Source: Rhododendron vialii
Lineage: Eukaryota > Streptophyta > Magnoliopsida > Ericales > Ericaceae
DNA length: 64,000 nucleotides
Direction: 5' to 3'
Assembly: GCF_030253575.1 (NCBI RefSeq)
Contig: NC_080559.1
Span: forward strand, 8,026,501 to 8,090,500
In this document: positions 1,104 through 54,800 of the stretch, piece after piece
Layout: each line of letters starts with the position of its first letter
How positions within the stretch are numbered: the stretch's first letter is position 1
Notes under the pieces: generated by a model
What the model was told of the DNA's origin: nothing
The model's database searches: none
The model's input: only the letters and a program-made list of their open reading frames with translations
Translations under genes and position numbers: made by a program

Positions 1104-2776
1104 GGTACCACCAATTGTTGCTGTAGATTTTTCGGCACATCAATCAAAACCGGACCAGGACGGCCTGAACGAGCAAGGAAAAAAGCCTCTTTCACAATCC
1201 TAGGAATATCCTCTGCATCTAGAACAAGATAATTGTGCTTCGTAATAGGCCTAGTTACCTCAACAATTGGGGTTTCTTGAAAAGCATCGGTACCTATCTG
1301 TTTATGCCTATTTTTGGAACATAATCTCGGACCAGTGCTAGAGGGCCATTTAATTAGATACTAATTAAATTGGGTCGAGATTTACAAGTTTCTCGGGCTA
1401 AAAATTAGTGGGTCATATTAATTTTGTGATCTGAAGCAAGGCTCAATTAATTAAAGCCCAAGTGAAGCGAGATACGCCGAATAATCTTCCATGGAAGTTT
1501 TTATTCGGAGCTTTAGAAAAAAAATGAAGGCAACAGGCAAGTGATTGTTCTAAAAGTGGAGTGGCCCACGAGCCACGATGCAGGAGCAATTAGGTTTTTA
1601 CTTGGAAGTTACAAGTAATTGTGGACACTTGGCATCCAAAGAGCAAAGGAGGGAAGTTATTTGCCAAGTCATGGGATACTTGTCAACATACAAGAAACCC
1701 ACTCCCTGTGATCTCACTCTTCCACAATTCGGGCTGCTTCTTTGCTCTTTTCTGCACAACCTTGGAGCCTATATATAACAGAATCGAAGATAGAAAAAGG
1801 GTTCAACACCAATTAAAACATAGCGCTTAAAAACATTTTTCTATTTTCAACAAAGTAGACTATCGAGTACCTCGTGCTCAAATCTCATTCGAACTTACTT
1901 CTTTAAGTAGTTTGAATTTTACTTTTCTTGTACCACTTTATTATCCCGGTATAATAAAGTTTACGTTTTATATTTTACGCATTTCCTATACGACTAGAAA
2001 ATTCTAAATCCACAATCGTGTGACAAACCATGACCCTCCTTGTAATCATTACCCTTTGGGTCACAAGCAATCTCCTTACAAGTTAGAAGTCACGATTCAC
2101 AGCAATCGTCATCCAAAGTTAGGCGCTACAAGTCTTGGCACGTCCGTACTCAACCAACCAACGCCTGCAAACGCATCCGCGCCTTGCTCGGCGTACGTGT
2201 GTCAAAAACGGGAGTTTTCACTATCATACTCGTTGGGACTTGTCCGGTGATGGCGACGATGGGGATGCTGTCGAGCATTGCGTCGGGGAGGCCGGAGATG
2301 AGATTGGTGGCGCCGGGGCCGAAGGTGGCAATGTAGACGCCGGGGAAACCGGAGGCGCGTGCATAGCCCTCAACGGCAAAGATCCCGCCTTGTTCGTGGC
2401 GGGGGAGGACGTTTCGGATGGTGGGGCAGCGCGTGAGGGACTGGTGGATCTCCATCGTGTCGCCGCCAGGGTAGGCGAAGACGTGCTTCACGCACTCCCG
2501 CTCGAGGGCCTCCACTAGGACATCGGTACCCTTTCTGGGTTGCTCCGGGGCAAATCGGGAAAGGAATGTTTCGGTTGGGGTGGTGGGTTTGGAGTTGGAG
2601 TTGGAGAGGACATTGGAAATTTGGAGAGGGCGGCGGATGGCGGTGGTGGTGAACCGGTGGGGATTAGAGGTAATGGGGAGGGTGAATCTGGGAAGAGGGT
2701 TTTTGGATTTGGTGTGGGAGATGATTATGGAAGGAGGATAGGAGGAGATGGCAGGGTTTGCAGCAAGCGCCGTCAT
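1104..2776 (-). pseudogene. ALS: Acetolactate synthase pseudogene (ALS-A), split by a solo LTR and 3'-truncated
   Basis: Minus-strand remnant of plant acetolactate synthase, the plastid ThDP enzyme of branched-chain amino acid synthesis. The 5' part runs from the ATG at 2776 to 2221: a Ser/Thr/Pro-rich transit-peptide-like leader, then [19 protein letters not shown], the catalytic-Glu motif LPRHEQGG and AITGQVP. A solo LTR (1299-2220) interrupts it; the frame resumes at 1298 with [16 protein letters not shown] and PGPVLIDVP and stops at 1104, where homology ends. The two thirds downstream, including the FAD and ThDP/Mg2+ regions, are missing. Where present, it is closer to the family consensus than ALS-B or ALS-C: no gap around MIGTDAF. 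The usual Ala of the YPGGAS motif is Asp. Its 5' leader resembles that of ALS-B, so the two are duplicates in opposite orientation. Confidence 0.9.
1299..2220. mobile_element. Solo LTR (922 bp) inserted in ALS-A, target duplication CTATC
   Basis: The segment begins TGTTTATGCC and ends GGGAGTTTTCA, so it has TG...CA termini. It is bounded by CTATC at 1294-1298 and 2221-2225. Removing it with one CTATC rejoins the ALS-A reading frame exactly (…Met-Ile / Gly-Thr-Asp…). It has no coding capacity; a TATATATA motif near 1770 and AATAAA-like sequence near 1950 fit an LTR. One LTR with matching target duplications is the product of LTR-LTR recombination. The superfamily is not recognisable. Confidence 0.87.
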
Positions 2777-2777
2777 A

Positions 2778-3489
2778 TCTGAAGGAAAGAGAGAGAAACA
2801 GAGTGGAGGCCGTTTTGTGTGTTTGTGTAGAGTTTTGAGGGAGGAGAAGGACGAGTGGTGAGAAGCAAGTTTTTATACTGTATCAAATATATTAGCCGCC
2901 AGATGCCCCGCTAATTTTGTTTGTTTCCGAGTCGAGTTCGGACAGAGCATGCACTACAGAATAGCGGAGTTTACGTGTGCTAAAAGAGAGAATCTTTGCA
3001 TCTGTTTTGCAAAGAAAAAGTTACAGTGCTCAGTCGAGATCGTCCAAAGTATTTTTAAACGATTTGGATTGAAAATCAATTTTGATAGATAATAAATGAT
3101 TATGATTAACTTGTTTTCAAACAAATCTCATTAAAATCCGAACCGTCCAAAATCGAAATGGACGCGCAAGATTAAACAGAAGCTGTGAAAAAGACACTCA
3201 CGTGCCAAAAATGCTTATATTTCTATGGATTGTTACTACTTACTAGTAATTAGATAGGGGTGTATATACATCTGGCCGAGTTGGGTCGGACGGAACTTGC
3301 ACTACAGAATTACGGAGTTTATGCGTGCTAAAATTCCATCCAATCATCAAATAGGTTTCTCTTGATATTTCTCATGCTTATTTTCTAAACCCGTTAATCT
3401 ATTTATTTTATACTACCTTTAATTTCTATAAATTCCTTCTACGAAAAGGTTGAAACTTACAAACTATCTCCCGGTAGTGCAACTTTTAC
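2778..3489. other. ALS-A upstream region with a diverged direct repeat
   Basis: The first 100 bases are the ALS-A leader, similar to the ALS-B leader. Beyond it, a stretch of about 55 bases at 2927-2986 (containing 'gcactacagaat' and 'cggagttta') recurs in the same orientation at 3275-3333. No gene is seen. Confidence 0.5.
2871..2877 (-). promoter_or_regulatory. Possible TATA box of ALS-A
   Basis: TATAAAA on the minus strand, about 95 bases upstream of the ALS-A ATG at 2776, a normal distance for a plant promoter with a leader of about 60 nt. Positional inference only. Confidence 0.4.
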
Positions 3490-5487
3490 TGTAACGCCCT
3501 GAATTTTGGAAACGTTAAATAGACATTTTTATTGAAAATCTAAATAGAGTTTGGCTCAATATTACATCATAATTCTCAAAAGAGTACTTTTATTCAACAA
3601 AATGAGGGGAAACTAAGGTTCCTATCTACTGCCCTGTCTGCTCCTCCATCCTAGCCAGCTCCTCGGCTCCGAAAGTCTTCAAGGTGTAGAGTTCTCCCTG
3701 TTCATCTACAAAGTCTGACACATTATACCAGCGTCGCTACTAGTATAATATCTCAGGGTCACCAAAAGTAACACCGTGAGTTACGAAAACTCAGCAGAAC
3801 AATCTCATACCCGCTAATCCATAAATTACACATAATAGTGTATAGAATTAGTGAGATCCACATAACACATGTGTATTTAACAAAATAATTAATAATGACA
3901 CATCCACATCCACATTCACTATTCAACTAATGTTGGTATCCGTGATTTTTGAGTTTCTCCTACGCGATATCTCGTAAATCGTGTCTCCATTTTTCACTTT
4001 TCATTTTCCAAATCAACATTTCCAAAATCGTTTTTACACTCTCATCCTCGGTTCCGCCGCTCCGAGTTCCCGAGTATCCGCACAATAGTTCCGCTGCTCC
4101 GGGTTCCCATTGGCACACAATTGGCATTGACACCTCTCTGCGATAGCCAAGCCACACATCCTACCTCGGTTCCGCCTCTTCGGGTTCCTGAGTATCCGCA
4201 CAATGATTCCGCCGCTCCGGGTTCCCATTGGCACATACACACACACACCATACAATGGGCTACCACGTCCTGCCTCATTTGGGATTTCAAAATATTTCTT
4301 TTTTTTTTTCAAAACACATCTCATCATTAACCACATCCTAGGTGCCATATTTTTACTTTCTCGATTTATGTGTCTCGTTTTCATGCAACGACTCCGCGGT
4401 AGGACTTTTCACATATGTAATCATAAATCATTCATTGTAATCTTAAAACTAAACTAGCAAGATCATCCAACTCTATATTAATCATCATGCTCAAACCACA
4501 ACTTAAAGCATAACGTCACATGTATGGACGCCTTTGGAGTGAAAATCACTTATACTTTATCACACCACAAGTAATACAAGCAATTCATGTATGCATGCTC
4601 ATAATCATTCTAAATATCAAAATACGAATATTTCTTCATCAACATTAAATGCTTATCTTTCTAAATCTGTTCTTTCTTCTTTTGTGGAAAGTTTTAAACA
4701 ACATATGTTTATTGAAGTAAATGTCGATTATTCAACATGTTTATACATCCTTTAGCAAAATAAATTTACTAGCTATCTTTCATGCATTTCAAACATTATA
4801 GGCAACTAGACAAACTTATATATATACTTAGAGAGAGTAGTTAGGGATATTCTACATGATCATACAACTTTTATACTTAGAATTAATGAGTAAGGGAAAA
4901 TCTACCGTTCTTCTTGGTGGTAGGTACGGCTACGAAAAAAGTAAGTACGTCGGACGGAGTAACTTCCTACGGTGAGCTTCCGGTAGCTTCAAAAGAGAAA
5001 TGTTTTTCTCAAAACTAGATCTTGACTATACTACTAAACTTTTTGGATCCAAAGGGTGGTCGAGTGGTGGTTTGTGACGGTTTTGGATGAGTTTCTTGAA
5101 GAACTTCAAGAAAAACTCAAGAATACCAAGAACAAGAAAGAACAAAGTAAGAACTCAAGTATTTCTAGAGAGAGAAGTTGAAAGGTTAAAAGGTGTGAGT
5201 TAAATGGCAAGGATGGGGTGCTATTTATAGCAAAAGTCTTGGCTATTACCCAAGGAATAAAAATTCTCCCTAATAATTATTGTCCAATGGTTAAGATTTT
5301 TCTAAAAAAATAATAGGCCAAAAGGTACATGTACCCATATATAAATATATTTGTGTACTTAGAAAATCTTATAAAATACTTTACAAGATACTATATAATC
5401 TTTTAAGATTTTCAAGTATCCAATAAAAAAATATAAGATCAAAATTTCTTAATAAACTAATCTAATAAGCACATGTTTCTATTTTAT

Positions 5488-5521
<34 letters not shown>

Positions 5522-54336: not shown

Positions 54337-54360
54337 TGTGTAAACCCTTGACCTCCTAAC

Positions 54361-54377
54361 CCGGAGCTCTGATACCA
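54361..54377 (-). other. Primer binding site of Copia-2
   Basis: Minus-strand TGGTATCAGAGCTCCGG, complementary to initiator Met-tRNA, two bases inside the 5' LTR. Confidence 0.9.
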
Positions 54378-54379
54378 GT

Positions 54380-54722
54380 TGTTGGGGATTCGAACGTCCA
54401 AACCCACAAGCAAACGCACACAATCGAAGAACAAATCAAGAACAGAAAACAATATAAAGTAAGAAAAGAACAAGACACAGAGATTACGTGGTTCCGACTT
54501 AAGCTGATTGCTTAATCGTACGTCCACGGGGTGCTGGGGTGTTTCACTATGATGAAAATATGTCAGAGTTACAAAAAAGAGGCAGCCCTAGCTTTGCTTT
54601 TATATGTGCAAACAAGCTAATACTAGAAAACCCTAAAAAACGCTAAAACCTGCGTTGGGCGGGACCCAAAACCTTCCGGGTCATTTTTACTGCGACTCTA
54701 AAATTGTCTTCACATCTCAACA
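54380..54722 (-). repeat. 5' LTR of Copia-2
   Basis: 343-bp partner of 50022-50364; expected to hold the element promoter. Confidence 0.96.
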
Positions 54723-54800
54723 CCTGGCCCTTTCTTGTTGGACGTTATCGCACCAGCACTAGAAGAAGAAATGGTCTCGCTGCACCGAGCAATTCTATGA

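Follow-up and report, generated by a model that had tools for sequence, protein, structure and literature searches.

Extra copies of the plant gene for acetolactate synthase (ALS, also named AHAS) have been described as pseudogenes before. The available excerpts of two papers report BnAHAS4 and BnAHAS5 of Brassica napus as AHAS pseudogenes (PMC7072869), and ALS3 and ALS4 of Alopecurus aequalis are likewise held to be pseudogenes there, being 99.5% identical to each other with the frame broken by one single-base deletion (PMC5332366). Here, we describe three ALS-like copies, ALS-A, ALS-B, and ALS-C, in a window of Rhododendron vialii DNA, by which we mean the whole stretch of 64,000 nucleotides that was analyzed (contig NC_080559.1, positions 8,026,501 to 8,090,500). 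As far as those excerpts go, the locus is similar to the Brassica case in that additional pseudogene copies would exist beside presumed working ones, and to the Alopecurus case in that additional ALS copies are considered pseudogenes. However, it differs from the former by a verified mobile element in each copy, and from the latter by the age of the copies (synonymous divergence, dS, of 0.37-0.50) and by two frames that are nearly whole. A closer counterpart is RHMOL_Rhmol03G0070600 of R. molle (P0002 in our protein set), which corresponds to ALS-B with 95% identity at 96% coverage and shares with it the losses at residue 198 and residues 577-593 as well as the substitutions G121D, T203I, H352Y, and W574R, whereas residues 347-349 are kept in the R. 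molle protein and its annotated C-terminus diverges after VPHQ. Literature searches, with most subscription journals outside their coverage, found no report on ALS pseudogenes in Rhododendron and none pairing AHAS with the term pseudoenzyme.

We consider it likely, with a probability of roughly 0.8, that the three copies in the window are old duplicates of the gene for the plastid-targeted ALS catalytic subunit, all of them inactivated or decaying. The identity of the copies is well supported: ALS-B matches crystallized Arabidopsis ALS with an E-value of 1.7e-289 and carries all three domains of thiamine diphosphate (ThDP) enzymes (Pfam PF02776, PF00205, and PF02775), while ALS-C is 75% identical to ALS-B over 1657 nt and ALS-A 82% identical over 645 nt. 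In ALS-C, the N and M domains were recognized in the piece upstream of its stop, and in the upstream piece of ALS-A only the N domain. Apart from ALS-B itself, the R. molle protein is the closest database match, followed by proteins of Vaccinium darrowii (81% and 80%) and the annotated intact ALS of R. vialii (653 aa) and R. griersonianum (641 aa), with 79% each. In the phylogenetic tree, all copies fall inside one Ericaceae set (support 97/90), and ALS-A adjoins the pair formed by ALS-B and its R. molle counterpart with support of 94/84, slightly below the program's mark; the long branch of ALS-C makes its position uncertain. The three-copy ALS family proposed in a first-pass annotation of this DNA, made from the sequence alone, is thereby borne out both by similarity and by the tree. 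No copy in the window resembles an intact ALS, and a working ALS should therefore lie elsewhere.

Disabling lesions of the kind that mark ALS pseudogenes were found in these copies (residue numbers follow Arabidopsis ALS throughout). The activity of ALS depends on the active-site loop, which follows W574, and on the C-terminal arm. ALS-A ends near residue 264 and so lacks both; ALS-B is devoid of residues 577-593, and ALS-C of residues 571-597 together with the normal C-terminus (part names follow the available excerpt of PMC9277346). Judging from these losses, none of the three copies would be expected to yield an active ALS.

In addition to its loop, ALS-B lacks residues 198 and 347-349, and its stop falls four codons early in comparison to Ericaceae ALS, since the four Ericaceae proteins P0003-P0006 continue for another four residues (RSKY or RLKY). 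Glu144 and residues 538, 565, and 567 are retained, and we take the latter three to be the metal site of ALS and assume the usual roles for all four. Thus, while ALS-B had been singled out as the only open copy, and its frame is indeed open, the gene is lesioned by the missing loop, W574R, and the early stop. Comparison with the R. molle protein places the loss of the loop before the split of the two lineages. The loss at 347-349, which is seen in ALS-B and ALS-C, probably arose more than once, because it removes one unit of the short repeat LGMLGM and is found in ALS-C as well. In ALS-C, the ThDP motif GDGS reads DDAT, further changes at inspected sites are A122E, Q207L, K256I, H352N, H567N, and M570K, and D538 and N565 are kept. 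The copy additionally carries a nonsense TAA at 49684-49686, upstream of its mobile element, and its C-terminus cannot be aligned after VIAP. ALS-A shows A122D at a herbicide site; without its inserted element it would present 248 open codons, and its homology breaks off at position 1104. The flank has CA at its end, as is usual for elements with long terminal repeats (LTRs), and a second LTR element, with its other end outside the window, is likely to be located here.

The distribution of amino acid changes is consistent with decay. Alignment columns were classified using 152 putative ALS proteins of 640-672 aa, taken from 160 (P0001 and P0002 were left out and six were dropped for length), and private changes were counted in invariant, near-invariant, and variable columns. 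For the controls P0005 and P0006 (intact Rhododendron ALS), these amounted to 1/648, 10/236, and 29/385, respectively (p 2.5e-10), with a small bias to be expected, as both controls belong to the class-defining set and the 99% limit allows one deviating row. On the stem of ALS-B before the R. molle split, constraint is still visible (12/298, 7/115, and 28/187; p 5e-5). Between ALS-B and its R. molle counterpart after the split, the same totals contain 12, 5, and 10 changes (p 0.79), 5 of the 32 differences having been dropped because they lie in the divergent R. molle tail. In this comparison, sites that are invariant in ALS have changed at a neutral rate since the split, and ALS-B therefore behaves as a pseudogene. 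Changes in ALS-C are spread evenly over constrained and free sites (86/292, 32/110, and 53/164; p 0.78), and for ALS-A, the private changes relative to the four Ericaceae proteins come to 15/125, 3/24, and 16/87 in the three column classes, respectively. It should be noted that this test covers ALS constraint only and would miss a new function that makes other demands on the protein. For the mature parts, dS is 0.37 (A-B), 0.43 (B-C), and 0.50 (A-C), with corresponding ratios of nonsynonymous to synonymous divergence (dN/dS) of 0.26, 0.48, and 0.37. When polarized by the four Ericaceae proteins, the 172 amino acid differences between ALS-B and ALS-C are assigned to ALS-C in 135 cases, to ALS-B in 28, and to both in 8, with 1 being ambiguous.

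The mobile elements associated with the copies are well delimited (Table 1). A solo LTR, consisting of a single TG...CA stretch with a 5-bp target-site duplication (TSD) and no internal region, interrupts ALS-A, and no full-length partner of it was found in the window. ALS-C is interrupted by a Copia element with paired TG...CA LTRs, a 5-bp TSD, and an integrase that precedes the reverse transcriptase; its two LTRs are identical at 343/343 positions, and the element is therefore young, in contrast to the dS of 0.37-0.50 between the ALS copies. Both insertions had been recognized in the first-pass annotation, and their exact TSDs confirm them. The third element, located at the end of ALS-B, has an 8-bp TSD and short terminal inverted repeats, with its ends TAGGGCTGTTAC and TAGGGGAGTTAT matching imperfectly at 9 of 12 positions by eye, and no frame of at least 120 aa was found inside it, as is the case in non-autonomous elements. 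These features fit a non-autonomous hAT element. It had been described as starting on the stop codon of ALS-B, which holds for the TSD, since this begins at the third base of the TGA, while the element itself begins 8 bases further. As four more residues follow in the four Ericaceae proteins, element and TSD sit in formerly coding sequence.

Table 1. Coordinates of the ALS copies and the mobile elements associated with them (positions within the window).
Feature	Position	Strand	Description
ALS-A	2776-1104	minus	two pieces around a solo LTR
ALS-A, upstream piece	2221-2776	minus	from its ATG, open; open reading frame and Pfam match
ALS-A, downstream piece	1104-1293	minus	to about residue 264; 87% to ALS-B
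Solo LTR in ALS-A	1299-2220		922 bp; exact TSD GATAG (minus strand) at 1294-1298 and 2221-2225
ALS-B	13007-14887	plus	open frame, 626 codons and stop
hAT-type non-autonomous element	14895-15748		854 bp; exact 8-bp TSD ATCAAAAT at 14887-14894 and 15749-15756
ALS-C	48307-50021 and 54728-54800	plus	two pieces around a Copia element
ALS-C, main piece	48307-50021	plus	from its ATG; lacks 199-206, 276-277, 347-349, and 571-597
ALS-C, remainder	54728-54800	plus	follows the Copia; has lost the normal C-terminus of ALS
Copia in ALS-C	50022-54722	minus	4701 bp; two 343-bp LTRs; full gag-pol frame; TSD CCTGG at 50017-50021 and 54723-54727

Several observations weigh against a simple loss of all three copies. 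The frame of ALS-B is open and R. molle has an annotated protein as its counterpart, although the open frame tells little, because decay as in ALS-B (28 replacements) resulted in only 1.3-1.5 simulated stops. The dN/dS of 0.26 between ALS-A and ALS-B implies that constraint acted through much of their history. Furthermore, ALS-C contains a single stop in its core after about 143 replacements, compared to 6.3-6.7 expected from neutral simulations (three settings with 400 runs each, halted at 143 replacements), in which at most one stop occurred in 0.5-1% of the runs. All 6 core gaps in the DNA alignment of ALS-C with ALS-B are multiples of 3, and off-frame gaps are confined to the transit-peptide part and the tail, both of which are poorly aligned; against V. 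darrowii P0004, 7 of 7 core indels comprise whole codons, even though a protein alignment can show no other kind. These findings raise the possibility that ALS-C was for a long time a catalytically dead but coding ALS-like pseudoenzyme that was ended only recently by its nonsense codon and the Copia, a history that we regard as unlikely. In such a case, the copy, having lost its catalytic parts, might have remained under selection for a protein readable over its full length, largely irrespective of which ALS residues were kept, perhaps as an assembly partner in ALS complexes, with its end in this lineage brought about by the nonsense codon and the young Copia; this scenario, too, is unlikely. 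Its changes fall evenly on sites that are invariant and free in ALS, no relative closer than intact ALS proteins was found among the 120 matches listed, one of the seven indels is the repeat unit that ALS-B has lost as well, and the frame tests on ALS-C were picked after its sequence had been seen. Conserved fold chemistry was also considered and rejected, as all 132 usable changes in ALS-C gave z of 0.3-1.0 and are not conservative overall, while the 78 codons that are one step from ALS-B gave z of 1.35-1.85 (P 0.03-0.09), which is weak at best. Replacements in ALS-A (17 changes) and the R. molle counterpart of ALS-B (12 changes) fit neutrality as well, with little power.

A further proposal, namely that ALS-B encodes a functional protein whose role has changed, could draw on its open frame, the retention of Glu144 and residues 538, 565, and 567, and the R. 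molle counterpart with its high identity. However, the loss of the loop, W574R, changes that have ignored ALS constraint since the R. molle split, and the differing C-terminus of the R. molle model make this highly improbable. The first-pass annotation had attributed the breakage of two copies to mobile elements, and a version in which these were the first cause of loss in every copy, with all other lesions arising later, would agree with the presence of one element in each copy and with ALS-A being open but for its LTR. We nevertheless judge it very unlikely, since the LTRs of the Copia are identical while ALS-C is long decayed, the hAT-type element lies beyond the stop of ALS-B, and the loop of ALS-B was lost before the R. 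molle split. Indeed, ALS-C is also disabled by the active-site deletions of 199-206 and 571-597, by its nonsense codon (which may predate or postdate the Copia), and by a C-terminus unrelated to that of ALS. The Copia made none of these lesions, and the loss of 577-593, G121D, and W574R in ALS-B are common to R. molle. Breakage by an element thus remains plausible for ALS-A only, even though this copy, too, has private changes at invariant columns. An assembly artefact is highly improbable: the TSDs are exact at all three elements, and the lesions of ALS-B are found again in a separate R. molle record. The coincidence of three insertions in three copies also appears less striking than originally suggested, given that insertions within genes are always seen, while old ones in spacers are not, and that a hand list assigns about 28% of the window to element-like DNA. 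In the available excerpt of a study of seven Rhododendron genomes, 3.7 to 8.0 solo LTRs were counted per intact LTR element (PMC12837525, Table 2), so that elements in or near genes are ordinary here, and elements were tied to gene decay in this genus. Returning to three old duplicates undergoing loss, a presumed intact ALS elsewhere in the genome would suffice and would lift the constraint on the copies, and the elements may have accumulated mainly since they were not purged, without having initiated the loss, except perhaps in ALS-A. Apart from the surprisingly whole frame of ALS-C, the pattern resembles gene decay of the usual kind.

In plants, ALS is a major target of herbicides, and resistance typing is based on eight known sites, according to the available excerpt of PMC7072869. 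With A122D in ALS-A, A122E in ALS-C, and W574R in ALS-B, typing in Rhododendron could falsely indicate resistance alleles when the primers co-amplify these copies. ALS-B furthermore illustrates that a gene with an open frame, all three Pfam domains, and a protein annotation in R. molle can nonetheless evolve like a pseudogene, while ALS-C could serve as a test case for whether, and why, a gene can shed all family-specific constraint yet keep its frame. A loop-less ALS as a recurring plant type was considered as well and dismissed: besides R. molle, a search with the ALS-B junction listed the Linum tenue model P0161 without the stretch after QWEDR. This model was not counted, as another two segments are missing from it and false introns are the probable cause.

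Additional features were observed in the window. A second young, full-length Copia (23680-28401; 312-bp LTRs with one difference, TSD ACAAG) carries a minus-strand gag-pol frame of 1326 codons and is about 59% identical in DNA to the Copia of ALS-C over the shared part. The stretch 17788-18432 has hAT-like ends (AGGGCTGTAAA ... TTTACAGCCCT), as judged by eye. Among ten other frames of the window, Pfam matches were limited to Gypsy-type domains and one sub-threshold match; a decayed Gypsy-type element at 34030-37960, with ends set by eye, contains RNase H and Tf2-type SH3 domains, each in a frame of its own. No tRNA was found in the window by ARAGORN (bacterial code), and a tRNA-like stretch at 56546-56620 (GAGCTCTTAGCTCAGTTGG...), recognized by eye, is a possible head of a short interspersed nuclear element (SINE). 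At 29906-30184, a dense block of CCACCG/GCC repeats gives rise to long frames in two phases, which are probably spurious. Finally, three fold-back elements (16773-17142, 20305-20685, and 21548-21853) are self-inverted at 78%, 88%, and 74%, respectively, and share 62-65% identity with one another.

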